The translations under genes and the position numbers were made by a program. A DNA stretch of 64,000 bases from Aliiroseovarius halocynthiae (lineage in GTDB: Bacteria > Pseudomonadota > Alphaproteobacteria > Rhodobacterales > Rhodobacteraceae): assembly GCF_007004645.1 (NCBI RefSeq), contig NZ_ML660021.1:62001-126000 (forward strand), given 5' to 3'. Positions 33,704-52,070 of the stretch are shown here, piece after piece (the first letter of the stretch is position 1; each line of letters begins with the position of its first letter). The notes beneath the pieces were generated by a model. It saw only the letters and a program-made list of their open reading frames with translations, was not told the origin of the DNA and made no database searches.

Positions 33704-34942
33704 TTAGAACCGCGTGGGGGCAAACGGATCCAGCGCCAGTTCCGGCGTCGCGCCAAGCGCCAGATCTGCGACCAGTTCCGCTGTGCCCGCCGATTGGGTC
33801 AGGCCAAGATGGCCATGTCCGAACGCATAAACCACCCGCGCGTCTTGCGGAGAGCGCCCGATGACGGGCAGCGTGTCAGGCAGGGACGGGCGGTACCCCA
33901 TCCATTGCTTGCCGCCCTCGGTGTTCAGCCCTGGCAGGAAATCCCGTGCCTTCTTCAGCAAGATATCGGCGCGTTTGAAGTTTGGGGGGAGCTTCAGCCC
34001 GCCAAGTTCTACCGCGCCGCCGACGCGCACACCGCCATTGATCATCGAGACCACGAAACCGTGTTGGCTGAAGGTCAGATGGGTGCGCAGGTCGAAGGCA
34101 CCGGGGGGCAAGGTGGTATTATAGCCGCGCTCGGTTTCCAGCGGTATCTTGTCGCCCAGACGGCGCGCCAGATGGTGGGACCATGCGCCTGCGGCGATGA
34201 TCAGCTTCTGGGTCTCAATTTGGCTGTCACTTGTTTGCACGCGCATACAGCTCTCGGCGGGGGTGATGCTGTGAACGTCAGTGATCTTGATGTCGCCACC
34301 CGCGTCGCGCAGCGCTTGCGCCACGGTTTCGGTCCACAGCTTCGGGTCCACGGTGTTGAACCAGTTCGGGGTGAACGCGCCGTGGGTGAACCGCGGATGC
34401 AGGCCCGGCTGGTATTCCGCGATTGCCTCGGGGCTGGTCAGGTGGATTGCGTCAAAGCCGTGCTGTTTCTTCAATTCCCATGCGGGCAGGGTGCTCAGGT
34501 AAGCTTTTTCGCCCTCGTACAGCGCCATTTGACCTTTGCGCTGGATCAGGTCCTCGCCCTTGATATGCGCGACCTGCCGTTCGAAGGCGGCCTTCGCCAC
34601 GTGCATCAGCTGGGCCTGCGCTTTCATCGAACCTTCATAACGATCCCGCCAACTGGCCCTCCACAACCGCAGCATCCACGGCGCGATTTGCAGCGCATAG
34701 GCGGGCGGGACTGACAGAGGCCCCAATGGGTCCAATAGCCATTTTGGGGCTTGTTTCATGATGCCGGGTTTGGCCAGCGGCTCGATTTCCTGAAACGCAA
34801 AGGCGCCAGCATTTCCGGCCGAGGTTTCACCCGCGACGCCCTTACGGTCCAGAACGCGGACCTTTTGGCCACGGCGGGCAAGCTCCAGCCCGATGCTGAT
34901 GCCGGTGATGCCGGCGCCGATGATTGTGATGTCGTCAGCCAT
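33704..34942 (-). CDS. FAD-dependent D-amino-acid dehydrogenase family oxidase (DadA-like)
   Basis: 412 residues. N-terminal FAD-binding motif IIGAGITGISIGLELARRG (residues 6-24) and the C-terminal FAD contact GHGHLGLTQSAGTAELVADL. Related to DadA and to D-hydroxyproline dehydrogenases. The adjacent upstream remnant of a proline racemase/hydroxyproline epimerase favours oxidation of D-hydroxyproline or a D-proline derivative, coupled to quinone, though general D-amino acids are equally possible. 102 bases separate it from msrB. Confidence 0.82.
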   Translation of the reverse strand: MADDITIIGAGITGISIGLELARRGQKVRVLDRKGVAGETSAGNAGAFAFQEIEPLAKPGIMKQAPKWLLDPLGPLSVPPAYALQIAPWMLRLWRASWRDRYEGSMKAQAQLMHVAKAAFERQVAHIKGEDLIQRKGQMALYEGEKAYLSTLPAWELKKQHGFDAIHLTSPEAIAEYQPGLHPRFTHGAFTPNWFNTVDPKLWTETVAQALRDAGGDIKITDVHSITPAESCMRVQTSDSQIETQKLIIAAGAWSHHLARRLGDKIPLETERGYNTTLPPGAFDLRTHLTFSQHGFVVSMINGGVRVGGAVELGGLKLPPNFKRADILLKKARDFLPGLNTEGGKQWMGYRPSLPDTLPVIGRSPQDARVVYAFGHGHLGLTQSAGTAELVADLALGATPELALDPFAPTRF

Positions 34943-35641: not shown

Positions 35642-36541
35642 TCAGCTTGGGCCACCGCCGCTGCTGCTTTGGCCAAACTTGCGAAACAATTTTGTGCGGT
35701 CGAAGGCCTCTTCCAGCTCGTCCGTGCGTGCTTTGACGCTGTCCCAAAGGCGTTCCTGAACCTCGGCCACTGCGCATTCCAGCAGGACCAGCAGAGCTGA
35801 CATCGAATCCCACGCCGAAGGAACGGCAATACGGGCGCTGAACGTGTGGCGCGCCAGCCGGTGAATGGGCGAACGCCATTGGTCCGTGAACAGCACAATC
35901 TCGGCCTCGCGTTCATGGGCCAATTGCCCGATCACAAGTGTCGTATTTTCATAGCGCCGGACGTCCAGCGCAATCAGAATATCCCCTTTGCGAATGTCCA
36001 GCAGCTCGTGTGTCCACGAGGCCGAAAAGGGCAACAGACGCACATCCGGGCGGATCATCTGAAGGTGCAGATAAAGGTATTGCGCCAAGGTTCCTGTGAT
36101 GCGGCCTCCGGTGATGAAGATCCGCCGGTTCGGATCGCAGATCAGCTTGCACAGCGCGTCGAACTCGTCGGGGTCCACTTCGTCCAGACTGCGCTTTTGG
36201 TTCTCAAGCGCTTGCCGGGAATAGCGGTTCAGCGTGTGTTCTTCCGGCAGATCCGTCTTCCACACATCGCGCTTGGCGACTGGGTCCGAGATCATCTCTT
36301 TCAGCTCGCGCCGCAGTGCTGCCTGAAACTGTGGGTAGCCGTTGAACCCGGTTTTCTGCAGAAGTCGCGCGACAGTAGTCGTGGACACCGCCGCCGCCGC
36401 GGCCAATTCCGTAATGCTGCCCAGCCCTGACAGCGGATAGTCATCCAGAATGGCGTTCATAAGCTGACGCTCGGAAGGTGTCATGTCTTCGCGATGTTGT
36501 AAAAGCTGATCGGTTACGCGCACAGGCAACATCCTTTGCAT
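35642..36541 (-). CDS. MurR/RpiR-family transcriptional regulator
   Basis: 299 residues. N-terminal HTH_6 domain (about 1-80: TPSERQLMNAILDDYPLSGLGS and ELAAAAAVSTTTVARLLQKTGFNGY) and a C-terminal sugar-isomerase (SIS) domain (about 125-260: RRIFITGGRITGTLAQYLYL, GDILIALDVRRYENTT). Regulators of this kind bind a phosphorylated sugar or other small ligand. It is divergent from the amidohydrolase-TRAP-glutamine-synthetase gene run and most likely controls it. The C-terminus ends in a Ser/Gly tail. Confidence 0.88.
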   Translation of the reverse strand: MQRMLPVRVTDQLLQHREDMTPSERQLMNAILDDYPLSGLGSITELAAAAAVSTTTVARLLQKTGFNGYPQFQAALRRELKEMISDPVAKRDVWKTDLPEEHTLNRYSRQALENQKRSLDEVDPDEFDALCKLICDPNRRIFITGGRITGTLAQYLYLHLQMIRPDVRLLPFSASWTHELLDIRKGDILIALDVRRYENTTLVIGQLAHEREAEIVLFTDQWRSPIHRLARHTFSARIAVPSAWDSMSALLVLLECAVAEVQERLWDSVKARTDELEEAFDRTKLFRKFGQSSSGGGPS

Positions 36542-36555
36542 TGAATTTCACTATT

Positions 36556-36643
36556 CTGTCAAAATATCGACAGGGAAATCAAGGGTGGTTAATTTGCTAC
36601 GGAAAAATATTGACACAGTTAAAGAAGCTGTGGAAGTTTTTCC
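36556..36643. promoter_or_regulatory. Divergent promoter region with inverted repeats (candidate RpiR operators)
   Basis: Between the divergent starts are CTGTC (36556) with GACAG (36569), CACAG (36614) with CTGTG (36628), and a wider 7-bp pair GGAAAAA (36601-36607) with TTTTTCC (36637-36643). GGAAA/TTTCC half-sites are common in RpiR-family operators. A TTGACA at 36610-36615 could be a -35 element. The pairing is exact but short; function is inferred. Confidence 0.4.
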
Positions 36644-36645: not shown

Positions 36646-37422
36646 ATGGAATCGCAGACGTTGAAATCAGCATTCGGTCCGGCCGTGCATGTGGACCAGA
36701 TGGCCGATGCGCCCTCGGTGATCGTGGTGTGTGAACATGCCTCGAACCGGGTGCCCGCGCATCTGAAGGGTTTGGGGCTGGATGCCGACACATTGACCCA
36801 GCATATCGCTTGGGATCCCGGCGCGTTGCCCGTGGCCAAAGGGATTGCGCGCCGTCTGAACGCGGTACTGGTTTACGGTGGAATTTCGCGTCTGGTGTAT
36901 GACTGCAACCGCCCACCCAATGCGCCAGACGCAATTCCGTCCCGCAGCGAGGTATTCGAGATCCCCGGCAACACTGATCTAAGCGACGCCAACCGCGCCG
37001 CACGGGTGGACCAAGTTCATCGCCCGTTTTCAACAACACTCACGGAACAGATCGGTGTGCACCGGGCTCATCTTCGGATGATGGTCACGGTCCACAGTTT
37101 TACACCTGTCTATCGTGGTCAGACGCGTGATGTGCAGATCGGCGTTTTGCATGGCGACGATGACCGGTTGGCGCATGCGATGATGCAGACGATACCCGCA
37201 GATCTGGGTATGGAGGTTCAGCTGAATGAGCCATATGCGGCGTCAGATGGTGTTGCACATACGCTGAACAAACACGCGGTGCCGTACGGTTTGCCGAACG
37301 TGATGATCGAAATCCGCAATGACCTGATCGAAACCGAAGCGCAGCAGGCAGCGATTGCTGGTGCGTTGGCGGCTTGGGTTGCTCAGGCCGAGGCCCATTT
37401 GACCGAAAGGAGCACCGCATGA
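36646..37422 (+). CDS. N-formylglutamate amidohydrolase-family enzyme
   Basis: 258 residues. Family text includes VIVVCEHASNRVPAHLKGL, ISRLVYDCNRPPNAPDAIP and the late NVMIEIRNDLI. The family's characterised member HutG removes formate from N-formylglutamate, but no hut genes are nearby. As first gene of a run containing a glutamine-synthetase-like ligase, an alternative role as hydrolase of a gamma-glutamyl amide is attractive (inference). ATG at 36646 has GGAAG upstream; codons before it overlap the RpiR promoter. Its stop overlaps dctQ (ATGA). Confidence 0.82.
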   Translation: MESQTLKSAFGPAVHVDQMADAPSVIVVCEHASNRVPAHLKGLGLDADTLTQHIAWDPGALPVAKGIARRLNAVLVYGGISRLVYDCNRPPNAPDAIPSRSEVFEIPGNTDLSDANRAARVDQVHRPFSTTLTEQIGVHRAHLRMMVTVHSFTPVYRGQTRDVQIGVLHGDDDRLAHAMMQTIPADLGMEVQLNEPYAASDGVAHTLNKHAVPYGLPNVMIEIRNDLIETEAQQAAIAGALAAWVAQAEAHLTERSTA

Positions 37423-38003
37423 CTGCTCTGATGACTGGGTATGTACGTGTCGTTGATGCCGTGAATTACCGCATCGGTCGCGTGATGATGTGGGGGCTTT
37501 TCGTCATGATGGGGATCCTTTTGTGGTCCTCGATCTCGAAGACGTTTTTTGTGCCTTCGCTTTGGACGCTGGAAATGGCGCAGTTTGCCATGGTGACCTA
37601 TTACATCATGGGTGGGCCGTATTCGCTTCAGATGGGGTCGAATGTGCGGATGGACTTGTTTTATCACAATTGGAACGACCGCAAGAAAGCGTGGTTCGAC
37701 GCGTTCACAGTGTTCTTTTTGCTGATCTATCTGGGCGTGCTGGTTTGGGGTGGTGTCGGATCGACCGCCTATTCTCTGGGATATTGGGGCGATGCGCCGT
37801 TTTCGTATTTCTGGGGGCTGATCACCGGGGCGGAAGAGGTCGGGCGGCTTGAGCGCTCGTCCACCGCGTGGCGCCCCTATGCCTGGCCCATCAAATCCAT
37901 CATGGTCGTCGGCTTCTTCCTGATGCTGCTTCAGGCCATTTCCGAACTGTTCAAAGACATCGCCCGCATCCGCGGCAACGAGATTGGTGTGACACGCGCA
38001 TGA
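37419..38003 (+). CDS. dctQ: TRAP transporter small permease (DctQ)
   Basis: 194 residues with four membrane segments (VMMWGLFVMMGILLWSSI; FAMVTYYIMGGPYSLQMGSNVRMDL; FDAFTVFFLLIYLGVLVWGG; a C-terminal one near VVGFFLMLLQAISEL). The SNVRMDLFY segment is usual in DctQ proteins. Somewhat longer than the common 160-180. Pairs with the DctM protein encoded next, overlapping it by four bases. Confidence 0.92.
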   Translation: MTALMTGYVRVVDAVNYRIGRVMMWGLFVMMGILLWSSISKTFFVPSLWTLEMAQFAMVTYYIMGGPYSLQMGSNVRMDLFYHNWNDRKKAWFDAFTVFFLLIYLGVLVWGGVGSTAYSLGYWGDAPFSYFWGLITGAEEVGRLERSSTAWRPYAWPIKSIMVVGFFLMLLQAISELFKDIARIRGNEIGVTRA

Positions 38004-39319
38004 GCCAAGAATATATCGCCATTTTCATGTTCGCATCGATGATGCTGATGCTGTTCACCGGCCAGCGCGTGTTCGGTGCGATCGGGGCCGTGGGTGCCAT
38101 TGCCGCGCTTGCCCTTTGGGGCGTGGGCGGGCAGGACATTCCGTTCTCGGCCGCGATGAAGCTGATGAAATGGTATCCGCTTCTGACCCTGCCGATGTTT
38201 ATCTTCATGGGTTATGTCCTGAGCGAAAGTCGCTTGGCTGATGACCTGTATCGCATGTTCCACGTCTGGATGGGTCCGGTGAACGGAGGCCTTGCGATAG
38301 GCACCATCGGCCTGATGGTTCTGGTGTCCGCCATGAATGGTCTGAGCGTCGCAGGCATGGCAATTGGCGCGACGATTGCCCTGCCCGAACTTCTGCGCCG
38401 GGGCTATGACAAAATCATGGTCACAGGGGTGATCCAAGCCGGGTCCAGTCTGGGCATCCTTGTGCCGCCTTCGGTCGTGTTGGTGCTCTACGCGATGATC
38501 GCGCGCCAGCCCGTGGGACAGCTGTGGCTGGCGGGCGTTCTGCCAGGGCTGATGATGGCGTCACTGTTCATCATCTACATCTGGCTGCGCTGCAAAATCC
38601 AACCGCATCTTGGCCCGGCGATGGAAGATGCGCATCAGGTCTCGCGCGCTGAAAAGATCCGCTTGCTGGGTGCGGGTATCCTGCCGCTAGCGATCTTCGC
38701 CGCGATGATGGTGCCTTTCGTGAACGGCTGGACCTCGCTGGTCGAAAGCTCGGCCATTGGCGCGCTGACGGCCTTGTTCGCCTCGGTCGCCAAGCGCCGC
38801 ATGACGTGGCAGATATTCGAGACCTGTACCAAGCAGACCTTACTGATTTCCTGCATGTTCATGTGGATTATTCTGGCGGCGCTGGGCTTTGGCGCTGTCT
38901 TCGACGGGTTGGGCGCGGTCAAGGCCATCGACAACCTGTTTACCGAACAGCTTGGGCTGAATCCGTGGGTCATTTTGATCCTGATGCAGCTAAGCTTTAT
39001 CATCATGGGTACGTTTCTGGACGATACCGCGATGCTGGTCATCGTGGCGCCGCTTTACGTGCCCTTGGTCAAAGTGCTGGGCTTCGACCTGATCTGGTAT
39101 GGGGTGCTTTACACCATCACCACCCAGATCGCGTATATGACGCCGCCCTTTGGCTATAACCTGTTTCTTATGAGGGCCATGGCACCGCCAGAAATTGGGC
39201 TGGGGGACATTTACCGTTCGATCGTGCCATTCGTCCTTATCATGGTGATGGCCTTGGCAATCATCATGACCTTCCCCCAAATCGCTCTGTGGCTGCCCAA
39301 TTACGTTTACGGAAAATAA
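38000..39319 (+). CDS. dctM: TRAP transporter large permease (DctM)
   Basis: 439 residues, about 12 membrane segments. MFIFMGYVLSESRLADDLYRM, VIQAGSSLGILVPPSVVLVLYAM and TPPFGYNLFLMRAMAP are hallmarks of DctM. Moves substrate with sodium ions after delivery by the binding protein. ATG at 38000 overlaps the dctQ stop. Confidence 0.95.
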   Translation: MSQEYIAIFMFASMMLMLFTGQRVFGAIGAVGAIAALALWGVGGQDIPFSAAMKLMKWYPLLTLPMFIFMGYVLSESRLADDLYRMFHVWMGPVNGGLAIGTIGLMVLVSAMNGLSVAGMAIGATIALPELLRRGYDKIMVTGVIQAGSSLGILVPPSVVLVLYAMIARQPVGQLWLAGVLPGLMMASLFIIYIWLRCKIQPHLGPAMEDAHQVSRAEKIRLLGAGILPLAIFAAMMVPFVNGWTSLVESSAIGALTALFASVAKRRMTWQIFETCTKQTLLISCMFMWIILAALGFGAVFDGLGAVKAIDNLFTEQLGLNPWVILILMQLSFIIMGTFLDDTAMLVIVAPLYVPLVKVLGFDLIWYGVLYTITTQIAYMTPPFGYNLFLMRAMAPPEIGLGDIYRSIVPFVLIMVMALAIIMTFPQIALWLPNYVYGK

Positions 39320-39352
39320 CGATAATAAATTCAACCAACTAGGAGAGAAGAA

Positions 39353-40387
39353 ATGACGACAAGACGTAAGTTCTTAACTACCGCCGGGGTTGGCATGGCC
39401 GCCGCCCCATTGGCGACACCCGCACTTGCACAAAGCACGATCAAATGGCGCATGCAGACCTATGCAGGCCCCGCGCTGGCAGCCCACGTGATCGATCCGG
39501 CAATCAAGATGTTCAACCAGATCGCAGGCGATCGCATGCAGATCGAACTGTTCTATGCGGACCAGTTGGTCCCAACAGGCGAGCTGTTCCGCGCTATGCA
39601 GAAGGGCACGATTGATGCGGTGCAGTCGGATGATGACTCGATGGCGTCGCCCACGGATGTGACCGTGTTCGGCGGCTATTTCCCCTTCGCCTCGCGCTAT
39701 TCGCTGGACGTGCCGGTCCTGTTCAACCAGTACGGCCTGAATGAGATCTGGGACGAGGAATACTCGGCCGTTGGCATCAAACACGTCAGCGCCGGATCGT
39801 GGGACCCGTGCCACTTTGCCACCAAGGATCCGATCAATTCGCTGGCCGATCTGAAGGGAAAGCGCGTCTTCACCTTCCCAACTGCAGGTCGCTTCCTGTC
39901 GCAGTTCGGCGTGGTCCCCGTGACCCTGCCGTGGGAAGACATCGAGGTCGCTGTACAAACAGGCGAACTGGACGGCGTGGCGTGGTCGGGCATCACGGAA
40001 GACTACACCGTGGGCTGGGCAGACGTGACTGACTATTTCCTGACCAACAACATCTCGGGCGCATGGGCTGGGTCGTTCTTCACCAACTTGGATCGTTGGA
40101 ACGAGTTGCCGGAAGATCTGCAAACCCTGTTCCGCGTTTGCTGTGACCAGTCGCACTATTATCGCCAGTGGTGGTATTGGGGCGGAGAAGCCAGCCTGCG
40201 CGTCAACGGCGACAAGATGAAGCTGACCACCATCCCGGATGAAGAATGGGCGCAGGTCGAACAGGCCGCCGTCGCCTTCTGGGACGAGATCGCTGCAGAA
40301 AGCCCGACCAAGGCCAAAGTGGTCGAGATCTTCCGCAAGTATAACGCCGACATGCAGAAGGCTGGACGGCCCTATCGCTATGGCTAA
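39353..40387 (+). CDS. dctP: TRAP transporter substrate-binding protein (DctP)
   Basis: 344 residues. The N-terminus MTTRRKFLTTAGVGMAAAPLATPALA resembles a twin-arginine signal. The mature protein belongs to the DctP family: the carboxylate-binding Arg region is in KRVFTFPTAGRFLSQFG, and VQTGELDGVAWSGITEDYTVGW is a typical binding-cleft segment. Ligand unknown; TRAP systems favour carboxylates, sulfonates and related acids. AGGAGAG lies before the ATG. Confidence 0.92.
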   Translation: MTTRRKFLTTAGVGMAAAPLATPALAQSTIKWRMQTYAGPALAAHVIDPAIKMFNQIAGDRMQIELFYADQLVPTGELFRAMQKGTIDAVQSDDDSMASPTDVTVFGGYFPFASRYSLDVPVLFNQYGLNEIWDEEYSAVGIKHVSAGSWDPCHFATKDPINSLADLKGKRVFTFPTAGRFLSQFGVVPVTLPWEDIEVAVQTGELDGVAWSGITEDYTVGWADVTDYFLTNNISGAWAGSFFTNLDRWNELPEDLQTLFRVCCDQSHYYRQWWYWGGEASLRVNGDKMKLTTIPDEEWAQVEQAAVAFWDEIAAESPTKAKVVEIFRKYNADMQKAGRPYRYG

Positions 40388-40401
40388 GGTGTAAGCAATC
40401 C

Positions 40402-40429
40402 GGCAGAGCTCTGACCTTAGGGCTCTGCC
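40402..40429 (+). terminator. Hairpin after the TRAP binding-protein gene
   Basis: GGCAGAGC (40402-40409) pairs with GCTCTGCC (40422-40429) around a 12-base loop. No T-run follows, so it more likely stabilises the upstream mRNA or reduces read-through to the distal genes than ends transcription fully. Confidence 0.5.
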
Positions 40430-40450
40430 AACCTAACTGAAAGACAACTG

Positions 40451-40975
40451 ATGTTTCCTTGGCTACGAACAGCATTTAAGCGCGGCTGCTTTTTGGTGGT
40501 AGCGATTTCGACAACGCTTGGTTGGGCGACCGTCCCTTTGGCGGCCCAAGCAGCAGATAGCTGTCCAGATTACAGATGGTCGGGTTTCACAAATCCCGGT
40601 CCCCAGGAGTTCAAAGTCGTAGACGCCTATCCCACTTCGCGGGGCCGCGAAGTGCATGAAGTACTTTTCGGACCACTCAAAGGGAAATACGCGAAAGCAT
40701 ACCTATTCGCTGAGTTCGAGGGCGATTGCTTGATGCGAGTGGTGTCTATCGGTTCCTATGCTCTGACAGCGATGGGTCTCGATGGTGAGGGCTCCACAGG
40801 TGATGACAGGCTTTATCATGCCGATCTGTATGAACCTAATAGCCATGCCACTCTTGGTTTCTACGAGGGCAAGCCAAATCTGGATGAGATGCGAGCACTG
40901 GCGATGTCGGTATTCTCTGAGCAGCCTGTAGAACCTGTAAGCCAAACGGAGTTGCCAAATGGCACCGGAGAATGA
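40451..40975 (+). CDS. Hypothetical secreted protein inside the operon
   Basis: 174 residues. A long N-terminal signal sequence (MFPWLRTAFKRGCFLVVAIS ... ending AAQAA) predicts export. The mature part begins DSCPDYRWSGFTNPGPQEF and has three aromatic-rich stretches, including GKYAKAYLFAEFEGDCLMR. Two mature cysteines could form a disulfide. I do not recognise the family. It sits between dctP and the ligase gene; its 3' end overlaps the ligase start by 17 bases. Codons are less GC-biased than those of its neighbours, hinting at later insertion. Confidence 0.7.
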   Translation: MFPWLRTAFKRGCFLVVAISTTLGWATVPLAAQAADSCPDYRWSGFTNPGPQEFKVVDAYPTSRGREVHEVLFGPLKGKYAKAYLFAEFEGDCLMRVVSIGSYALTAMGLDGEGSTGDDRLYHADLYEPNSHATLGFYEGKPNLDEMRALAMSVFSEQPVEPVSQTELPNGTGE

Positions 40976-42338
40976 AAGTGAAAGCATGCTGAGTTTCGAA
41001 GATCTTAAGGCGCAAGTGGCAGACGGAAGCATCGACACGGTGCTGGTTTGTTTGGTGGATATGCAGGGGCGTCTGATGGGCAAGCGCTTCCATGCCGGCC
41101 ATTTTGTGGCTGGTGCATATGAGGAAACCCATTGCTGCAATTACCTGCTGGCCACAGACCTAGAGATGGGTACGCCGGAAGGCTATGCCTCGACTTCGTG
41201 GGAAAATGGGTATGGCGACTATGTGATGAAGCCTGATCTGTCGACCCTGCGCCCGGTGCCGTGGCTTGAGGGGACGGCGTTGGTGTTGTGCGACATCCTT
41301 GATCACCATACGCATGCCGAGGTGCCTCATTCCCCGCGTGCGATCCTGAAGCGTCAGGTGGCGCGTTTGTCCGAGCTGGGCTTCGACGCCATGACCGCGA
41401 CCGAGCTGGAGTTCTTTCTGTTCGAGAAGAGCTTTGACGAGATCAGCAAAGGCGGCTTCCGCGATTTGACCCCGATCTCGGGCTATAACGAAGATTACCA
41501 CATTCTGCAGACCACCAAGGAAGAACACGTGATGCGGCCGATCCGTAATCACTTGTGGAACGCCGGTCTGCCGATCGAAAACTCGAAGGGCGAGGCTGAG
41601 ACTGGTCAGGAAGAGCTGAACATCAAATACGCCCCCGCGATGGACAATGCCGAGTATCACACGATTGCCAAACACGCGGTGAAGGAGATCGCATGGCAGC
41701 AGGGGCATGCCGCGACCTTCCTGCCTAAATGGCACCATGACAAGGTGGGCTCGTCCAGCCATGTGCATCAGTCGCTGTGGAAGGATGGGGCAAACGTGTT
41801 CTACGACGCGGATGACGCGCTGGGTATGTCAGCCCTGATGAAGTCCTACATGGCGGGTCTTTTGAAATACGCGCCGGATTACACCTATTTCATGGCGCCC
41901 TATATCAACTCGTATAAGCGCTTCATGAAGGGCACCTTTGCCCCCACCCGGATCATCTGGTCCGTGGACAACCGGACGGCGGGCTTCCGTCTGTGCGGCG
42001 ATGGCACCAAGGCCGTGCGCGTGGAATGCCGCATCCCTGGATCGGACATGAACCCCTATCTGGCCATAGCCGGAATGCTGGCCGCAGGTATTGCTGGTAT
42101 TGAAGAAGGTTTGGAGCTTCAGGCCCCAACCACTGGCGATGTCTATCAGGGGGAAACCGGAATGATCCCAGGCAATCTACGCGAAGCACGCGATGCAATG
42201 CACGGATCAACGATGCTACGGGCCGCGATGGGCGATGATGTGGTGGATCACTACACGCGCGCTGCGGAAGTCGAGATTGAAGAGTTTGACCGCGTCGTGA
42301 CCGATTGGGAAATCGCACGTGGGTTCGAACGGGCGTAA
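40959..42338 (+). CDS. Glutamine-synthetase-family gamma-glutamyl ligase
   Basis: 459 residues. N-terminal beta-grasp domain (LVCLVDMQGRLMGKRF) and catalytic domain with metal-binding ELEFFLFEKS, KWHHDKVGSSSHVHQSLW and the late NRTAGFRLCGDGTKAVRVECR. It lacks the adenylylation-site sequence of housekeeping GlnA, so it belongs to the type that joins glutamate to an amine (PuuA, GMAS, IpuC relatives). ATG 40959 has GGAG at good spacing; ATG 40986 (MLSFEDLK) is an alternative. Followed by aldehyde and alcohol dehydrogenases, which suggests its amine carries a hydroxyl group. Confidence 0.85.
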   Translation: MAPENESESMLSFEDLKAQVADGSIDTVLVCLVDMQGRLMGKRFHAGHFVAGAYEETHCCNYLLATDLEMGTPEGYASTSWENGYGDYVMKPDLSTLRPVPWLEGTALVLCDILDHHTHAEVPHSPRAILKRQVARLSELGFDAMTATELEFFLFEKSFDEISKGGFRDLTPISGYNEDYHILQTTKEEHVMRPIRNHLWNAGLPIENSKGEAETGQEELNIKYAPAMDNAEYHTIAKHAVKEIAWQQGHAATFLPKWHHDKVGSSSHVHQSLWKDGANVFYDADDALGMSALMKSYMAGLLKYAPDYTYFMAPYINSYKRFMKGTFAPTRIIWSVDNRTAGFRLCGDGTKAVRVECRIPGSDMNPYLAIAGMLAAGIAGIEEGLELQAPTTGDVYQGETGMIPGNLREARDAMHGSTMLRAAMGDDVVDHYTRAAEVEIEEFDRVVTDWEIARGFERA

Positions 42339-42348
42339 CGGAATCAGG

Positions 42349-42390
42349 CTGGGGGCTAGCCCCCAGACCCCCAGGATATTTGTGACAAGA
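42349..42390 (+). repeat. REP-like intergenic palindrome
   Basis: CTGGGGGCTAGCCCCCAG (42349-42366) is a perfect 18-base palindrome followed by ACCCCCAGGATATTTGTG. From general acquaintance with Rhodobacteraceae genomes, a G-run/C-run palindrome followed by CCCCC(A/G)AGG(A/T)TATTT is a frequent intergenic element. This is the only copy I see here. It could reduce transcription into the aldehyde dehydrogenase gene. Confidence 0.55.
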
Positions 42391-42427
42391 AAAAGGGATT
42401 TGATCCCTTAGAGAATGGAGACATGGC

Positions 42428-43810
42428 ATGGGCCAGATGTTGAAATGTATCTCGCCGATCGATGGATCGGTCTTTGCCGAGCGCGAGGTGCTGTCGCTGG
42501 GCGCGGCGCAAGAGGTCGTAGCGCGTGCCCGCAGCGCACAGGCAGACTGGGCAGCGCGCCCATTGGCCGAGCGGGTCGAGCTGGTGATGGCGGGCGTTGC
42601 CGCCGTTGGCGCATTGAATGACGAGATTGTGCCGGAACTGGCCCAGATGATGGGCCGCCCGGTGCGCTATGGCGGAGAGTTCGGCGGGTTCAATGAGCGC
42701 GCCAGCCACATGGCGTCGATCGCGGCAGACAGTCTGGCTGATATCGAGGTGGGCGAGGATGCGACCTTCAAGCGCTATATCAAACGCGTGCCGCATGGCG
42801 TGGTCTTTGTCGTTGCCCCATGGAATTATCCCTACATGACCGCGATCAACACCGTCGCGCCTGCGCTGATTGCTGGCAATGCGGTGGTGTTGAAGCACGC
42901 GACGCAGACCCTGTTGGTGGGCGAGCGGATGGCGGCCGCATTTGCCTCGGCCGGGGTTCCCGCCGATGTGTTCCAGAATGTCTTCCTGTCGCATGACGTG
43001 ACCAATGATCTGATCGCGGGCAACGCTTTTGATTTCGTGAACTTCACCGGATCGGTTGGTGGCGGTCAGGCGATGGAGCGCGCGGCTGCGGGCACCTTTA
43101 CCGGTGTCGGAACCGAGCTGGGCGGCAAGGATCCGGGCTATGTCATGGAAGACGCTGATCTGGACGCAGCGGTCGACACGCTAATCGACGGTGCCATGTT
43201 CAACGCGGGTCAGTGTTGCTGTGGGATCGAACGGATTTACGTGCATGAAAGCCTGTATGATGATTTCGTCGCCAAGGCTGTTGAGATCGTGAAGGGCTAT
43301 AAGCTGGGCAACCCGCTGGACCCTGAGACCACGATGGGGCCGATGGCGAATGTGCGTTTTGCGCAAGAGGTCCGGGCCCAGATCACAGAAGCGGTCGAAC
43401 AGGGGGCGACGGCGCATATTGCCTCGTTTGCGAGCGACAATGGTGGCGCGTATCTGACGCCTCAGATCCTGACCAATGTGACCCATGCTATGCGCGTGAT
43501 GCGGGACGAAAGCTTTGGACCCGTTGTGGGTATCATGAAGGTATCCAGCGATGATGAAGCCATCGCGCTGATGAATGACAGCGAGTTCGGTCTGACGGCG
43601 AGCCTGTGGACCAGCGACGTGGATCGTGCCGCGCGCGTGGGCGATCAGGTCGAAACCGGGACAGTTTTCATGAACCGTGCCGACTATCTTGATCCTGGCC
43701 TGTGCTGGACCGGCTGCAAAAACACTGGGCGCGGAGGGGGGCTGTCCGTGATCGGCTTCCACAACCTGACACGCCCGAAATCCTACCATCTGAAGAAGGT
43801 GACATCATGA
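42428..43810 (+). CDS. NAD(P)-dependent aldehyde dehydrogenase
   Basis: 460 residues. Catalytic Cys in FNAGQCCCGIERIYVHE, general-base Glu in TELGGKDPGYV, cofactor site in FTGSVGGG and VAPWNYPY. Oxidises an aldehyde to its acid. Overlaps the iron alcohol dehydrogenase start by four bases, so the two enzymes very likely act in sequence (alcohol to aldehyde to acid) on the product of the ligase. Confidence 0.92.
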   Translation: MGQMLKCISPIDGSVFAEREVLSLGAAQEVVARARSAQADWAARPLAERVELVMAGVAAVGALNDEIVPELAQMMGRPVRYGGEFGGFNERASHMASIAADSLADIEVGEDATFKRYIKRVPHGVVFVVAPWNYPYMTAINTVAPALIAGNAVVLKHATQTLLVGERMAAAFASAGVPADVFQNVFLSHDVTNDLIAGNAFDFVNFTGSVGGGQAMERAAAGTFTGVGTELGGKDPGYVMEDADLDAAVDTLIDGAMFNAGQCCCGIERIYVHESLYDDFVAKAVEIVKGYKLGNPLDPETTMGPMANVRFAQEVRAQITEAVEQGATAHIASFASDNGGAYLTPQILTNVTHAMRVMRDESFGPVVGIMKVSSDDEAIALMNDSEFGLTASLWTSDVDRAARVGDQVETGTVFMNRADYLDPGLCWTGCKNTGRGGGLSVIGFHNLTRPKSYHLKKVTS

Positions 43811-44952
43811 GCCTTGTTGGAAACTGGTCCTATCCGACCGCTATGAAATTCGGCGCAGGCCGTATCAAGGAATTGCCCGAGGCCTGTGCGCAGGCGGGCA
43901 TGAAGCGCCCGCTTCTGGTGACCGACAAAGGCTTGGCAGATCTGCCGATCACGAAGGCCACGTTGGACATTATGGAGGCCGCCGGTCTGGGCCGTGGCAT
44001 GTTCAGCGACGTGGATCCGAACCCCTCCGAGATCAATCTGCATGCGGGTGTCGAAGCCTATAAGGCGGGCGGCCACGATGGTGTGATCGCTTTCGGGGGC
44101 GGCTCGGGGCTGGATCTGGGCAAGATGGTTGCGTTCTACGCAGGCCAGACACGTCCGATTTGGGATTTCGAAGATATTGGCGACTGGTGGACTCGTGCGG
44201 ATTCAGATGCGATTGCGCCGATCATCGCGGTGCCGACCACGGCGGGGACGGGCTCGGAAGTGGGTCGTGCCTCGATCATCACGAATTCTGAGACGCATGA
44301 GAAGAAAGTCATCTTCCACCCCAAGGTTTTGCCAGCCGTCGTGATTGCTGATCCTGAGCTAACCGTGGGAATGCCGAAATTCATCACCGCAGGCACAGGT
44401 TTGGATGCGTTTGCCCATTGTGTCGAGGCCTTCAGCAGCCCGCACTATCACCCGATGAGCCAAGGCATCGCGCTGGAAGGCATGCGGCTGGTCATCGACT
44501 ATTTGCCGCGCGCCTATGCAGATGGCACCGACCTTGAGGCACGGGCCAACATGATGTCCGCCGCCGCGATGGGCGCGACTGCGTTCCAAAAGGGCTTGGG
44601 CGCAATTCATGCGTTATCCCACCCTGTCGGAGCTATTTTCAACACCCACCACGGGACCACGAATGCGGTCTGTATGCCTGCCGTGCTGGAGTTCAACACG
44701 GGTGAAATCGCCGATCGGTTCGACCGTGCTGCGGGCTATCTGGGCATCGACGGCGGCTTCAAAGGTTTCCAAAGCTTCGTGCAGGATTTCAATGATAGTT
44801 TCGAAATCCCCCGCAAGCTTTCCGAGATGGGCGTGAGCGCCGATCAGATGGATGCACTGGTCGAAGGGGCTATTAAGGATCCCAGCTGTGGCGGTAACCC
44901 GGTCGAACTGACGCGTGAAAATCTGCGCCAACTGTTTGAAGATGTGATCTGA
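43807..44952 (+). CDS. Iron-containing alcohol dehydrogenase
   Basis: 381 residues, group III. NAD-binding FGGGSGLDLGK, then PTTAGTGSEV; metal-binding Asp and His are in GTGLDAFAHCVEAFSS and HALSHPVGAIFNTHHG. Start at 43807 (MSLVGNWSYPTAMKFGAGRI) matches the family; the frame upstream is inside the aldehyde dehydrogenase gene. Probably oxidises a terminal hydroxyl in the pathway of this operon. Confidence 0.93.
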   Translation: MSLVGNWSYPTAMKFGAGRIKELPEACAQAGMKRPLLVTDKGLADLPITKATLDIMEAAGLGRGMFSDVDPNPSEINLHAGVEAYKAGGHDGVIAFGGGSGLDLGKMVAFYAGQTRPIWDFEDIGDWWTRADSDAIAPIIAVPTTAGTGSEVGRASIITNSETHEKKVIFHPKVLPAVVIADPELTVGMPKFITAGTGLDAFAHCVEAFSSPHYHPMSQGIALEGMRLVIDYLPRAYADGTDLEARANMMSAAAMGATAFQKGLGAIHALSHPVGAIFNTHHGTTNAVCMPAVLEFNTGEIADRFDRAAGYLGIDGGFKGFQSFVQDFNDSFEIPRKLSEMGVSADQMDALVEGAIKDPSCGGNPVELTRENLRQLFEDVI

Positions 44953-44956
44953 CTCG

Positions 44957-45796
44957 ATGACCACGGGCATTGTCCTGATCATCCTGTCGGCGGCGTTGCT
45001 GCACGCCACATGGAATACCATCGTGAAAACGGCGGGGGATCGGACAGCCACATTGGGTTTGGTGGCTCTGGGCCACGTGATCCCCGGCCTGGTCATGGTG
45101 GCGGTGCTGCCATGGCCGTCAGCCGAAAGTTGGCCCTATCTGATCACGTCCACAGTGATCCATTTCGGCTATTTCTATATGCTGGGGCAGGCCTATAAGC
45201 ACGGAGACCTCAGCGTCGTCTATCCGATTGCGCGCGGTATTGTCCCCGCACTGGTGTCGCTTTGGGCGATGCTGTTCGTGGGCGAGGTTCTGCCCGCGCA
45301 AGCATGGTTCGGCATCGCGCTGATCGCGGTGGCCATACAGATTTCCAGCTGGGCAGCGCTTCGCCATGGGGTCGGACGGGCGGCGTTGATTTTCGCGCTT
45401 GGCACGGGGGTCTGCATTTCGGGCTATTCTCTGGTGGACGGGGTCGGCGTGCGCCTGTCGGGTGACACGCTGTCTTATTGGGCGTGGCATTCGGTTTTGC
45501 ATATCTTCATCACCGGTTTCGTGGCCATGCGCCGCAGAGGTGCGTTGCTTGCGCTGCCCAGGCGCACATGGATGATCGGCATACTGGGCGGTATGGTGTC
45601 GATGACCGCCTATGGTCTTGTCCTCTACGCCAAGAATTTCGCGCCTCTTGGGGCGGTGTCGGCCTTGCGTGAAACATCGGTCATCTTCGCCGCATTGATT
45701 GGGTTTGTTTTCTTGGGCGAAGGCAACTGGCACCGCAGGTTGCTGGCGGCTGTCCTGATGGCCGGGGGGGTGGCACTGATTGGTCTTTCGATCTGA
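44957..45796 (+). CDS. DMT-superfamily (EamA) transporter
   Basis: 279 residues in two EamA repeats, about ten membrane segments. The first half has LLHATWNTIVKTAGDRTA and YKHGDLSVVYPIARGIVPALVSLWAM; the second has NFAPLGAVSALRETSVIFAALIG. Starts 5 bases after the dehydrogenase stop, so part of the same operon. Such carriers often export amino acids or related metabolites; direction and ligand are unknown. Confidence 0.88.
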   Translation: MTTGIVLIILSAALLHATWNTIVKTAGDRTATLGLVALGHVIPGLVMVAVLPWPSAESWPYLITSTVIHFGYFYMLGQAYKHGDLSVVYPIARGIVPALVSLWAMLFVGEVLPAQAWFGIALIAVAIQISSWAALRHGVGRAALIFALGTGVCISGYSLVDGVGVRLSGDTLSYWAWHSVLHIFITGFVAMRRRGALLALPRRTWMIGILGGMVSMTAYGLVLYAKNFAPLGAVSALRETSVIFAALIGFVFLGEGNWHRRLLAAVLMAGGVALIGLSI

Positions 45797-46131
45797 TGAG
45801 GATTCGAATTGAGCTAGGTCTAAGCTGTTGACACATACCCCTTTCAAGGCGTTCACTTCTTATAGTGGTCGAGGAGTCGGTCCAGATGAAATCGAAGGGT
45901 GGGATGCTGATGTAGCCAGTTTTAATCTGGGTATATAGTAGTCTGAAAGCAAAGGAATAAATCAGTTTCAAAGCTGGGCCTGACGTCAGTTACTGCCCGG
46001 CATTTTGCCAAAAGCCCAAGCATTACATCAAAACTGGACCGAACAAGCGACAACAGCTGGCGCTATTGGTGCGCCGGATAATGAAAAAAACTGTCGCAAG
46101 ACAAAAAAGAAAAAACCAACGGGAGAAGAAA
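45797..46131. other. Intergenic region before the polyamine-type transporter operon
   Basis: 335 bases, AT-richer than the flanks, with no credible open frame and no strong hairpin. It must contain the promoter of the potD-like operon, whose ribosome-binding site GGGAGAAG lies at 46121-46128. The in-frame ATG at 46081 (preceding a lysine-rich stretch) is not supported as a start. Confidence 0.6.
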
Positions 46132-47265
46132 ATGACAACAGATAACAAGTTCAGTCGTCGTTCCGTGCTGAAAGGCGCGACCACGATGGGTGCCGCCGCA
46201 CTGGCGACGCCGCTCTACGTGAAGAACGCACTGGCGTCCTCGGGCGAGATCAACATCCTGATGTGGTCGGACTATCTGCCGCCCGAGTTCATCGCGGGCT
46301 TTGAGGGCGAGACCGGCATCAAGGTGAACTACACCGGCATCGGTTCGAACGAAGAAATCATCAACAAGATGAAAGCGACCAAAGGTCAAGGCTTCGACAT
46401 CGTATCGCCGACCAACAACCGTTCGCTGCAGTGGGAGCCGCTGGAGCTTCTGAAGCCCTTCGATCTGGCGAAAGTAAACATCGACGCGGTGAACCCGGCG
46501 ATGGCAAAGATCGGCACCGATGCATGGAACTTTGGCGACAGCGGCGCGCACTGGCTGCCGCATATCTGGGGCACCGAAGGCATTGCCTATCGTACCGATA
46601 AATGGCTGCCAGCGGGTGACGCACCCAGCTATGGCGACGTCTGGTCGGAAGAAAACGCTGGCAAGACCATGGGTCGCGCACACTCGATGATGCTGGGTGC
46701 TGGCCTGTACATGGAAGCCTCGGGCGAGATGGAGCCGGGCTCGGTTTGGGCCGCCTATAATGACGAAGACACCATGCGCAAAGTTTGGGGTCAGATCGCT
46801 GACTGGTGTATTGCGCGTAAGAACCGCATCAAGCTGATCTGGAACGATGCCGACACCCAGAAGAACGGTCTTCTGAACGAAGGCGTTGTGGTTGGTCAAA
46901 CTTGGGATGGTCCGCCGCTTGCTCTGAAATCGGCAGGCGAGCCAGTACACTATCAGGCGCCTGTTGAAGGTGCGATGGCGTGGGTTGACGGTATGTCTAT
47001 GCCTGTCGGCGCGTCGAATGAAGAGCAGGTCTATGCCTTCATCGAATACGCTTATCGTCAGCAGCCAGCTGGCGTTGCAATTGACAGCCACGGTTATAAC
47101 TCGCCGGTTCTGGGTGCCGATACCTATTCGGGTGACACCTATAAAAAGAACTTCTCGGAAGCCTATCCGGGTGAAAGCCTTGCCAATCTGAACCCATGGC
47201 CGGCTGAAGCGCCTTGGTATGCTGATGTGCGTACCGAGTTCGTCAACAAGTTCAAGAGCGCCTAA
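46132..47265 (+). CDS. Polyamine-type ABC transporter substrate-binding protein (PotD/PotF-like)
   Basis: 377 residues. Twin-arginine signal peptide: SRRSVLKGATTMGAAALATP. The mature protein begins EINILMWSDYLPPEFIAGFE, typical of the spermidine/putrescine-binding family. Residues normally contacting polyamine amines cannot be confirmed by eye. As the first gene of a full SBP-ATPase-permease-permease set directly after the gamma-glutamyl-ligase run, it may import that pathway's amine. Confidence 0.9.
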   Translation: MTTDNKFSRRSVLKGATTMGAAALATPLYVKNALASSGEINILMWSDYLPPEFIAGFEGETGIKVNYTGIGSNEEIINKMKATKGQGFDIVSPTNNRSLQWEPLELLKPFDLAKVNIDAVNPAMAKIGTDAWNFGDSGAHWLPHIWGTEGIAYRTDKWLPAGDAPSYGDVWSEENAGKTMGRAHSMMLGAGLYMEASGEMEPGSVWAAYNDEDTMRKVWGQIADWCIARKNRIKLIWNDADTQKNGLLNEGVVVGQTWDGPPLALKSAGEPVHYQAPVEGAMAWVDGMSMPVGASNEEQVYAFIEYAYRQQPAGVAIDSHGYNSPVLGADTYSGDTYKKNFSEAYPGESLANLNPWPAEAPWYADVRTEFVNKFKSA

Positions 47266-47276
47266 GCGACTTGAAA

Positions 47277-47307
47277 GCGCGTGCCTCCGCCAATGGGCGG
47301 GGGCGCC
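47277..47307 (+). promoter_or_regulatory. GC-rich intercistronic hairpin after the binding-protein gene
   Basis: GCGCGTGCCTCCGCC and GGCGGGGGCGC can fold around AATG just after the stop codon at 47265. Such hairpins between a binding-protein gene and its transporter genes usually protect the upstream mRNA so the periplasmic protein is made in excess. Confidence 0.5.
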
Positions 47308-47392
47308 TTACCAAACTGACTGAAACGTCTGGAAAACACGGTCGCACGCCTGAGATCAGCGCGTGAACGACCCGTCTATGGGGAGAGACCAT

Positions 47393-48505
47393 ATGAGTGC
47401 CGGAGTAGGCGTCGATCTTGAAAACCTCTGGATCCGCTTTGGAGATTTCGTCGCTGTGCGCGACGCGAATGTGCACATCAAGGGGGGCGACTTCTTCTCG
47501 TTCCTGGGGCCATCGGGCTGTGGCAAGACCACGATCCTGCGTGCCGTTTCGGGCTTTCTTGAGCCCAGCGAAGGTAATGTGCTGATTGGCGGCAACAACA
47601 TGAAGGGCATCGGGCCGAACAAGCGCCCAACCGCGCTGATCTTCCAGAACCTAGCCCTGTTTCCCCTAATGAAAGTCTGGGAAAACATCACGTTCTCGAT
47701 GGAGATCGCTGGGGCCTCGGCCCGTGATCGTCGCAAACGTGCGGACGAGCTGTTGGACATGATCGCGCTGCCCGGTCAGGGTGACAAGCTGCCCAGCGAA
47801 TTGTCAGGTGGTCAGCGTCAGCGTGTGGCGATTGCCCGTGCGCTGTGCGCCGAACCTGATGTGCTGCTATTGGACGAACCGCTTTCCGCGCTTGACCTGA
47901 AGCTGCGCCAGCACATGCGCACAGAGCTGCGTGAAATTCAGAAACGCGTCGGCATTACCTTCATCTATATCACGCACGACCAAGGCGAAGCGCTGACCAT
48001 GTCAGACGATATCGCCGTGATGCGGGCAGGCGTGATCGACCAGATCGCTGATGGCAAAACCATCTACAACGATCCGGCAACCGCTTTTGCTGCCAGTTTT
48101 GTGGGTGAAAACAACGTCTTCCGCGGCAAGGTGTTAGAGGTTCGCGGTGATCAGGCCCTCATCCGAACCAACCGTTCGGGCGATCTGCTGTCGCGGATCT
48201 CGACCGCCAATCAGGGCAAGATGAATGTGGGCGATGATGCCATGATGTTCATCCGTCCCGAGGCATTGTCCTTGGCGCCCACCGGCACGCAGGGCGATCA
48301 TTTCGTCACCGCTAAGGTCAACCACGAAGAATTCGAAGGCAACTCGTTCAACATCTTCATGGAAGGCGACGGCGGGAAAGAGCTGAAGGTTGCAATCCCG
48401 AACCACGGCCAGTCGTTCGATGACCACTCGGGTCAGGACATGACGCTGGAATATGACGTGAACAACGCCGTTGCGGTTCCCGCCGGCGAATTGGCCGCGG
48501 AATAA
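47393..48505 (+). CDS. Polyamine-type ABC transporter ATP-binding protein (PotA-like)
   Basis: 370 residues. Walker A GPSGCGKTT, Q-loop IFQNLALFPLMKVWENITF, signature LSGGQRQRV, Walker B VLLLDEPLSALDLK, His-loop ITHDQGEAL; a C-terminal TOBE domain from about residue 270. ATG at 47393 with GGGGAGAG is preferred over GTG at 47363. Confidence 0.93.
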   Translation: MSAGVGVDLENLWIRFGDFVAVRDANVHIKGGDFFSFLGPSGCGKTTILRAVSGFLEPSEGNVLIGGNNMKGIGPNKRPTALIFQNLALFPLMKVWENITFSMEIAGASARDRRKRADELLDMIALPGQGDKLPSELSGGQRQRVAIARALCAEPDVLLLDEPLSALDLKLRQHMRTELREIQKRVGITFIYITHDQGEALTMSDDIAVMRAGVIDQIADGKTIYNDPATAFAASFVGENNVFRGKVLEVRGDQALIRTNRSGDLLSRISTANQGKMNVGDDAMMFIRPEALSLAPTGTQGDHFVTAKVNHEEFEGNSFNIFMEGDGGKELKVAIPNHGQSFDDHSGQDMTLEYDVNNAVAVPAGELAAE

Positions 48506-48516
48506 GGAGTGGAGCG

Positions 48517-49437
48517 ATGCCAGGTTTCCTGAAGGAATTCTTCAACCGGAACGGCACGCTGATGGGATCCTTGATGCTGGGTCTGGTCCTTTTCTGGACC
48601 GTTGGCCTGATTATCTTGCCTCAGCTGTCGATGCTCGACTTTTCGTTCCGTCCGAACCTTCCCCCGCCCGAGATCGGTGGGCCGAAGGACGTCTATACAC
48701 TCGAAAACTATAAATATCTGATCTATGGCCCAGAAGGCGGGTCGCAGGATTATAACGCGGTGGATTTGAAAGTCTTCTTCCGCACGTTGGTGGCGGCCGT
48801 CTGTGTGACGATCTTCAACCTGATCCTGTGCTATCCGATTGCCTATTATCTGGGTCAGACCAAGGGCAATCACATCCGTGTTTTCGCGCTGATGCTGATC
48901 ATCCCCTATTGGATTAACGAGATCCTGCGCGCTTTCGCGTTGCGGATCATCTTTGGCGAAAGCGGGGTGTTGAACACGCTGCTTGTGGGGTCTGGGATAT
49001 TCGACACACCCTTTGACTTCATCCGCAACGACATCGCGCTCTATGCGGGTCTTGGGTACGCCTATATCCTTCTGATGATCTTCCCGATCTACAACGTGAT
49101 CGAAAGCCTTGATCACAACCAGATCGAGGCCGCGCGTGACCTTGGCGCCCCGTGGTGGCGCATTCACAAGCGGGTGGTCATTCCCTATGCCAAGCCGGGC
49201 ATCAGTTCGGGCTGTACGATGGTGTTCATGCTGTCTGCAGGTGCTCTGGCCGCGCCCCAAATCCTTGGGGGTCCGTCCAGCCTGTGGTTCACGCAGCTGA
49301 TCTATCAGCAGTTCAACGACAACTCTGATTGGCCGCAAGGCGCTGCCTACGCAATCGTTCTGCTTGTCACCTGTATCCTGCTGGTGCTGGCTGTGATGCG
49401 CCTGTTCAAGGTGAACATGGGGGATATTGGCAAATGA
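48517..49437 (+). CDS. Polyamine-type ABC transporter permease (PotB-like)
   Basis: 306 residues, six membrane segments, permease loop IEAARDLGAPWWRIHKRVVIP. Twelve bases after the ATPase gene and overlapping the next permease by four bases. Confidence 0.92.
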   Translation: MPGFLKEFFNRNGTLMGSLMLGLVLFWTVGLIILPQLSMLDFSFRPNLPPPEIGGPKDVYTLENYKYLIYGPEGGSQDYNAVDLKVFFRTLVAAVCVTIFNLILCYPIAYYLGQTKGNHIRVFALMLIIPYWINEILRAFALRIIFGESGVLNTLLVGSGIFDTPFDFIRNDIALYAGLGYAYILLMIFPIYNVIESLDHNQIEAARDLGAPWWRIHKRVVIPYAKPGISSGCTMVFMLSAGALAAPQILGGPSSLWFTQLIYQQFNDNSDWPQGAAYAIVLLVTCILLVLAVMRLFKVNMGDIGK

Positions 49438-50711: not shown

Positions 50712-50733
50712 TCGTTCCGCTGCTTGAAAACGG

Positions 50734-50764
50734 AAAGGCCCGGCATTGCGCCGGGCCTTTTCAT
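50734..50764 (+). terminator. Rho-independent terminator of the polyamine-type operon
   Basis: AAAGGCCCGGC (50734-50744) pairs with GCCGGGCCTTT (50750-50760) around ATTGC, followed by a short T-run. The convergent cytochrome b561 gene ends 11 bases later, so it may serve both strands. Confidence 0.9.
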
Positions 50765-50774
50765 TTGTGGTGGG

Positions 50775-51347
50775 TTATTTGCCCCAAGTCATGCGTTTCA
50801 GCACATCGTCTTTGTGATGGACATGATGCCACAGCGCAGCACCTGCATGGCCCAACAACAGGGCCCCAAGGGCAATGGCGGAATAGAAATGCACCTGTGC
50901 AAAGAAGGTCGACAGGGCTTCGCTTCCCGGCACGAAAGGGTCGTACATCTCGAACCAATTGAAGACTTTGTTCTTCACGCCAAATCGATCCTGCAAAGGC
51001 GAGGCCGAGGCCATCAACCACCCCGAAAGCGGCATGATGAACATCAACGCGTAAAGCCCAAGATGGCCCAGCTTTGCCGCCATTTTTTCCAATGGATGCA
51101 TATGCGCCGGAAGGTCCGGGGCGCTTCGATTGAGCAGTCGCCAGATCACGCGGATCACAGCCAGCACGAACACCACAAACCCCCAGCTTTTATGGGTCTG
51201 AATCAATGGAAACTGCGCCAAAGCATCGGTCACGAACTGCGTCATCCAGACGCCCATCCCCAATTGATACAGGATGATCCCCGCAATCGCCCAGTGCAGG
51301 AGGCGCGCAAGCGCGCCCCAGCTTTGTGTCGTGTTCGTCAGGCGCAT
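50775..51347 (-). CDS. Cytochrome b561
   Basis: 190 residues, four membrane helices. Candidate haem ligands are in RLLHWAIAG, IQTHKSWGFVVF, KLGHLGLYALMF and VHFYSAIALGALLLGH. Bacterial b561 proteins pass electrons between quinone and periplasmic partners. Three bases after the yceI stop, so the pair is an operon; the YceI/b561 pairing is common. Confidence 0.92.
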   Translation of the reverse strand: MRLTNTTQSWGALARLLHWAIAGIILYQLGMGVWMTQFVTDALAQFPLIQTHKSWGFVVFVLAVIRVIWRLLNRSAPDLPAHMHPLEKMAAKLGHLGLYALMFIMPLSGWLMASASPLQDRFGVKNKVFNWFEMYDPFVPGSEALSTFFAQVHFYSAIALGALLLGHAGAALWHHVHHKDDVLKRMTWGK

Positions 51348-51350
51348 GGA

Positions 51351-51950: not shown

Positions 51951-51997
51951 TGTGACAGCTCCTTTGTCATGTTGCGGGGCAACGTGGGATGGATTAA

Positions 51998-52019
51998 TAG
52001 ATGCATGTGCATGTATCTA
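51998..52019. promoter_or_regulatory. 22-base palindrome, candidate MarR operator
   Basis: TAGATGCATGTGCATGTATC (then TA) matches its own reverse complement at 18 of 22 positions, with perfect outer arms TAGAT and ATCTA. It lies 48 bases before yceI on one side and 51 before the MarR gene on the other. Size and symmetry suit a MarR dimer site that would control both genes. Confidence 0.6.
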
Positions 52020-52070
52020 AATGCGCGGCGCTAGGGAAGGCGTTGATGGGCTTGGTAACGGGAATGTGAG

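Follow-up and report, generated by a model that had tools for sequence, protein, structure and literature searches.

A probable ethanolamine-to-glycine operon of the EtoVWX/GGAH type in Aliiroseovarius halocynthiae

What is the function of a glutamine-synthetase-like ligase whose gene stands in a single run with those of a transporter, two dehydrogenases and an N-formylglutamate amidohydrolase-like enzyme? The question is raised by a 64,000-nucleotide stretch of DNA from Aliiroseovarius halocynthiae (hereafter the window; NCBI RefSeq assembly GCF_007004645.1, contig NZ_ML660021.1, positions 62,001 to 126,000 of the forward strand), which belongs to a genome whose 29 contigs total 3,388,200 bases. 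The original prediction, made from the letters of the window, was that the run encodes a possible undescribed gamma-glutamylation route for an amino alcohol, wherein glutamate is attached to the amine, the hydroxyl is oxidized to the acid, and the gamma-glutamyl bond is cleaved by a HutG-like enzyme instead of PuuD. Results from the analysis described here suggest, with a probability of about 0.93, that the locus is an ethanolamine-to-glycine operon of the EtoVWX/GGAH type (GGAH, gamma-glutamylglycine amidohydrolase). This system is already known.

The run occupies positions 36646-45796 of the plus strand and contains, in order, genes for the hydrolase, the TRAP components DctQ, DctM and DctP, a 174-amino acid (aa) open reading frame (ORF), the ligase, an aldehyde dehydrogenase, an iron alcohol dehydrogenase and an EamA carrier. 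Adjacent genes either overlap or have at most 89 bases between them. The run and its divergent RpiR gene were confirmed at the predicted place and on the predicted strand, and all of the genes named in the prediction exceed the Pfam cut-offs of the families given to them. The 174-aa ORF, which lies between the binding-protein and ligase genes, had gone unlisted. In the features that follow, counterparts are those of Phaeobacter sp. MED193.

35642..36541, minus strand: RpiR/MurR-family regulator with PF01418 (HTH_6) and PF01380 (SIS), divergent from the run; counterpart MED193_10021
36610..36643, plus strand: candidate promoter and RpiR operator, consisting of a TTGACA box and, after it at 36632-36643, the inverted repeat GGAAGTTTTTCC
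36646..37422, plus strand: FGase-family enzyme, putative GGAH (PF05013, 139.8 bits); counterpart MED193_10026
37419..38003, plus strand: EtoV, TRAP small permease, DctQ (PF04290, 66.0 bits)
38000..39319, plus strand: EtoW, TRAP large permease, DctM (PF06808, 214.7 bits)
39353..40387, plus strand: EtoX, probable TRAP ethanolamine-binding protein, DctP (DctP, 76.5 bits; 629 bits to 4uab)
40451..40975, plus strand: extra 174-aa ORF, lineage-restricted, with a start that by eye resembles a signal peptide
40959..42338, plus strand: glutamine-synthetase-like ligase, putative ethanolamine gamma-glutamylase, ETAGA (PF00120, Gln-synt_C, 325.5 bits)
42428..43810, plus strand: aldehyde dehydrogenase, putative GAADDH for gamma-glutamyl aldehyde oxidation (PF00171, Aldedh, 381.3 bits); counterpart MED193_10051
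43807..44952, plus strand: iron-type alcohol dehydrogenase, putative gamma-glutamylethanolamide dehydrogenase, GETADH (PF00465, Fe-ADH, 161.1 bits; PF25137); counterpart MED193_10056
44957..45796, plus strand: EamA-family carrier, accessory, starting 4 bases after the dehydrogenase gene (PF00892, 63.0 bits)

The same gene classes are found in the same order in MED193, where the operon MED193_10021-10056 is given in the legend of Fig. 5 of Westermann et al. 2023 (PMC10132767) as RpiR, GGAH, EtoV, EtoW, EtoX, ETAGA, GAADDH and GETADH, with the same RpiR gene beside GGAH. The window differs from this legend by its extra 174-aa ORF, which separates etoX from the ligase gene, and by an EamA gene behind that of the alcohol dehydrogenase, which the legend does not list. 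MED193 itself was compared by legend; its gene order recurs in three other loci from Phaeobacter (L044, L058, L080). Westermann et al. report that MED193 EtoX binds ethanolamine with a Kd of 7.9 uM and that phosphorylethanolamine raises the levels of five MED193 proteins (the binding protein, the hydrolase, the ligase and the two dehydrogenases). Credit is given there to an earlier study, on Chromohalobacter salexigens and Agrobacterium C58. The same chemistry has also been predicted for the GlnA4 route of Streptomyces coelicolor (Krysenko et al. 2019, PMC6529630), including a gamma-glutamylglycine hydrolase of the formylglutamate-amidohydrolase family, SCO1615; this organism is of another phylum, and the comparison with it is one of chemistry. 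Because that prediction includes such a hydrolase, the idea of a HutG-like enzyme standing in for PuuD was already in print, and an undescribed pathway is ruled out by the two papers. The claim of novelty was therefore mistaken. The proposed capping, oxidation and cleavage match the published or predicted ethanolamine pathway, the homologues in the window fit it, and this chemistry is probably right.

By analogy to these systems, EtoVWX would import ethanolamine, the binding of which has been shown for homologues of EtoX. The ligase would then use ATP to join ethanolamine to glutamate, forming gamma-glutamylethanolamide, the hydroxyl of which would be oxidized by the iron alcohol dehydrogenase and the aldehyde dehydrogenase to give gamma-glutamylglycine. 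Finally, the FGase-family amidohydrolase would release glycine and return glutamate. The glutamate cap may prevent the formation of free aminoacetaldehyde, and the divergent RpiR protein presumably regulates the operon. The Eut ethanolamine ammonia-lyase route is ruled out by the lack of any match to EutB (PF06751) in the whole genome, for which the E. coli control was positive, so there is no competing Eut route. The operon would suggest how Aliiroseovarius, in a genome that lacks EutB, could draw on lipid head groups for both nitrogen and glycine.

The identity of the substrate was probed by comparing EtoX with solved structures. The window protein scores 629 bits against 4uab, while the next solved TRAP protein reaches only 76 bits. 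Structure 4UAB is that of Csal_0678 with ethanolamine, which is coordinated by Glu220 (PMC12410723). In the alignment, the Glu nearest to that number is at position 217 of the 4uab chain, which is aligned with Glu216 of the window protein; if chain position 217 is the published Glu220, as we infer, Glu216 is the presumed ligand-holding residue. This Glu is conserved in 62/62 compared EtoX proteins, namely those with at least 300 aligned residues among the 80 best related loci (defined below). Csal_0678 is described as lacking the carboxylate-binding arginine of TRAP proteins (PMC4646407). At the position of this arginine, a column that we picked from structure alignments, the window protein has Phe173 and its relatives have Phe (55/62) or Tyr (7/62), which fits an amine ligand. 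These comparisons point to the amino alcohol ethanolamine as the ligand of the binding protein. Eight of the compared EtoX proteins (L021, L027, L041, L046, L060, L063, L064, L075) are just 63-65% identical to that of the window, and in seven of these eight Tyr replaces Phe at the arginine position; the ligand of this group might differ.

Conservation of the gene run was examined in the best 80 of 585 confirmed ligase matches, all of which are at least 76% identical and come mostly from sequences titled as Rhodobacteraceae-type bacteria; the synteny counts are consequently not drawn from independent genomes. Sixty-four of the 80 loci are well-flanked, the other 16 having been set aside for short flanks before counting, and the thresholds for these counts, like the E-value cut-offs used below for genomes, were our choice. 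All eight genes from RpiR to the alcohol dehydrogenase occur in the same order and orientation in 47 of the 64 loci, indicating that the run is not due to chance. Taken singly, the alcohol dehydrogenase is found in 63 of these loci, the aldehyde dehydrogenase in 60, the hydrolase in 57, each TRAP gene in 51 and the divergent RpiR gene in 50. Among 142 genomes drawn from the class, 15 contain EtoX and 15 the ligase, and 9 (the window's own genome included) contain both, compared to about 1.6 expected if they were independent; the two lie side by side in 5 of the 9. Co-occurrence across genomes had been put forward as a check on the original prediction, and the outcome of this check is positive, though the association is not universal. 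Of 21 genomes from the genus, 18 contain the ligase.

The 174-aa ORF matches no Pfam or NCBIfam family and has no tblastn match at 1e-8 in any of the 80 best loci; it is found in 2 of the 21 genus genomes (own included), the other copy being 82% identical and in the same slot. A Na/Pi-symporter-family gene (561 aa) occurs between etoX and the ligase gene in seven Ruegeria loci (L013, L017, L020, L028, L034, L039, L042), and the slot is thus variable beyond the ORF of the window. The EamA gene follows the dehydrogenase in at least 12 of the 80 loci, as the stretches of some loci stop short of that point.

Although ethanolamine is the favored substrate, the operon could serve another small amino alcohol, such as alaninol, 3-aminopropanol or serinol. 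Some ligases of this fold are known to accept a broad range of amines, and the divergent group of eight EtoX proteins might be read in the same way. However, the window EtoX closely resembles the protein that was solved with ethanolamine, and proteins of the same gene order are reported to be induced on phosphorylethanolamine in MED193, making a different amino alcohol improbable.

About equally improbable is the suggestion that the FGase-family enzyme is a plain HutG N-formylglutamate deformylase that happens to lie beside the operon, with another enzyme cleaving the gamma-glutamyl bond. The window hydrolase does contain the PF05013 domain found in HutG deformylases, and elsewhere in the genome there is a full-length C26 (PuuD-family) match (G000:C1:1544382-1545038, 202 bits), in a family that is also matched in 14/14 control genomes. 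Nevertheless, the hydrolase accompanies the ligase in the 57 loci noted above, and its MED193 counterpart is among the proteins reported to rise on phosphorylethanolamine. The genome contains two further PF05013 matches, and BLASTP comparison of the matched stretches with the window hydrolase is non-significant (best E 3.5). Among solved structures, the window hydrolase scores 249 bits against 2odf, labelled Atu2144, which by its name we take to be a gene of the Agrobacterium strain (C58) that PMC10132767 cites. The matches of EtoX to Csal_0678, of the hydrolase to Atu2144 and of the ligase to 5dm3 (below) liken the window to the Csal_0678 system of C. salexigens and its counterpart in Agrobacterium C58.

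The ligase scores 802 bits against 5dm3, 565 bits against 11zs and 153 bits against 9qur, a glutamate-methylamine ligase; 5dm3 is presumably from C. salexigens. The ligase gene of the window may start at ATG 40959, which overlaps the 174-aa ORF, or alternatively at ATG 40986. The closest ligases come from Aliiroseovarius (93% identity), while identity to PuuA and GlnA is 28% and 30%, respectively. Residues of E. coli GlnA kept by the window ligase and 80/80 of its best relatives include E129, E131, E212, E220, H269, R321, R339, R344, E357 and R359. In contrast, the flap residue Glu327 of GlnA, which functions in ammonia handling, is replaced by Phe in the window ligase and in all 80 relatives (PuuA has Tyr), on which basis an ordinary glutamine synthetase is rejected. 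The NCBIfam scores of the ligase also fall short of the respective cut-offs, being 251 of 429 bits for GlnA, 236 of 470 for type III and 195 of 650 for gamma-glutamylputrescine synthetase, and, judged from the ligase alone, its score below the type III cut-off and the 153 bits to 9qur make a GMAS identity unlikely. Consequently, despite the family membership and the 28% and 30% identities that favor it, the proposal that the ligase is an ammonia-dependent glutamine synthetase, or a GMAS or PuuA enzyme for methylamine or putrescine, is very improbable, given the Phe at the flap position, the missed cut-offs and the lack of any tblastn match to PuuB or PuuD in the window.

This last result agrees with the claim that the run has no PuuB- or PuuD-type gene. 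A tblastn comparison of E. coli PuuB and PuuD with the window turned up nothing at E 1e-3, and a weak local BLASTP match of PuuB (37% over 43 aa, E 3e-4) falls in a DAO-family protein at 33704-34942 on the minus strand, outside the run. The Puu putrescine pathway is ruled out on this basis. The E. coli Puu route is similar in its overall logic of glutamate capping, oxidation and cleavage, and the aldehyde dehydrogenase of the window is 33% identical to PuuC over 340 aa. The PuuB oxidase of that route acts on an amine, not on a hydroxyl.

Several observations weigh against the ethanolamine-to-glycine assignment. At the column of GlnA Asp50, which is part of the ammonia site, the window ligase has Glu, whereas the loci have Asp in 70/80, Glu in 8 and Ser in 2; perhaps not every ammonia-site position has therefore changed, the N-terminal alignment being unsure here. 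Of the 142 genomes drawn, six contain EtoX without the ligase and six the ligase without EtoX, the two genes are non-adjacent in 4 of the 9 genomes with both, and two of the EtoX matches contain a stop codon. Identity of the hydrolase to its counterparts is 44-59% in all but 3 of the hydrolase-bearing loci among the 80. All of the enzyme steps are assigned to the window organism from sequence, and as presented by Westermann et al. only EtoX binding was measured directly in MED193, the enzyme steps resting on proteomics and the earlier study (PMC10132767). Moreover, accounts of the C. salexigens pathway differ, with PMC6529630 referring to an in silico prediction and PMC10132767 to a demonstrated function.

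The region between the divergent RpiR and hydrolase genes was compared with those of related genomes, giving 59 regions with the window included. TTGACA is present in 59/59 regions (shuffled mean 3.08) and GGAA-N2..6-TTTTCC in 14/59 (shuffled mean 0.07), where the shuffles keep base composition only. The GGAA-N2..6-TTTTCC motif, or the inverted repeat of the window, is a candidate RpiR operator. A shared perfect palindrome with 7-base arms was not found in the 59 regions compared, one being present in 1 of the 11 regions listed. In the window only 30 bases separate TTGACA from ATG 36646, suggesting that translation may start at the alternative ATG at 36700 or that the message is leaderless.

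While the window operon is known, a pattern seen in the loci of relatives, outside the window, is more novel. The gene etoX is missing from 13 of the 64 well-flanked loci. In 9 of these 13, compared to none of the 51 etoX-bearing loci, a HisN/IMPase-like (inositol-monophosphatase-family) gene lies at most 5 kb upstream of the ligase gene (L010, L026, L030, L032, L033, L038, L049, L067, L074). Five of the nine also hold a Na/Pi-symporter-family gene. The best NCBIfam match of the L032 phosphatase, encoded at 6744-7541 of that locus, is HisN, at 236 bits against a cut-off of 275. Among the short-flanked loci kept out of the count, L035 likewise carries the phosphatase gene, and etoX is missing from the short stretch that it covers. 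At E 1e-15, a PehA-like esterase match occurs anywhere in the locus in 5 of the 80 best loci, and a DeoR regulator match in 8 of the 80, some just 29-35% identical or located downstream.

It is possible, though on balance doubtful, that the glycine-forming core, made up of the ligase and in most cases GGAH and the two dehydrogenases, behaves as an exchangeable cassette, and that in some relatives the TRAP transporter is replaced by a phosphoester module that feeds in ethanolamine from phosphoethanolamine or glycerophosphoethanolamine. Such a module would consist of the HisN/IMPase-like phosphatase, in several loci the Na/Pi-symporter-family carrier, and in a few the PehA-like esterase and DeoR regulator. 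Phosphoethanolamine or glycerophosphoethanolamine would be taken into the cell and cleaved there, and the ethanolamine passed to the core. A HisN-like enzyme would suit this role, as histidinol phosphate is likewise a phosphate ester of an amino alcohol. The exclusion of etoX and the phosphatase gives a Fisher p of 2.6e-8 if kinship is ignored; on supported branches only 4 independent pairs are available, too few for the sign test to reach significance (median p 0.25). The tree is a weak one of the quick kind, with 16 of 78 inner branches starred, and on it the phosphatase label is scattered (8 changes, at least 3 forced), and it clusters no more strongly than in 144 of 500 shuffles. Counting against a shared pathway in these loci, 7 of the 9 have a GGAH match, and neither dehydrogenase nor GGAH is seen in L067. 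In the window's own genome, the Na/Pi carrier has no match in a search made without a positive control, and the IMPase matches are distant (37% at best). According to Westermann et al. (PMC10132767), phoX and phoB mutants still grow on head groups by a route left to be determined; the variant layout, if it functions as proposed, is a candidate for this Pho-independent phosphorylethanolamine route. No description of the phosphoethanolamine variant was found among the literature titles and abstract openings searched, from which its absence from print is not established.

Additional genes in the window adjoin or recall those discussed above. A 436-aa ORF at 50724-52034 on the plus strand matches nothing in NCBIfam at 1e-3 or in Pfam at 1e-5. 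It is preceded by a spermidine/putrescine-type ABC transporter (46066-50711, plus strand), which comes after the operon; the genes for its binding protein and ATPase are found again, at >80% identity and downstream of the alcohol dehydrogenase gene, in 6 of the 80 best loci (L004, L005, L010, L030, L033, L040). Finally, a PehA-like sulfatase/phosphodiesterase-family gene at 7593-9128 on the minus strand, which scores 454 bits against NF045661 (cut-off 900), adjoins a HAD-family hydrolase gene and is 69% identical to the PehA-like gene of the etoX-less locus L010.

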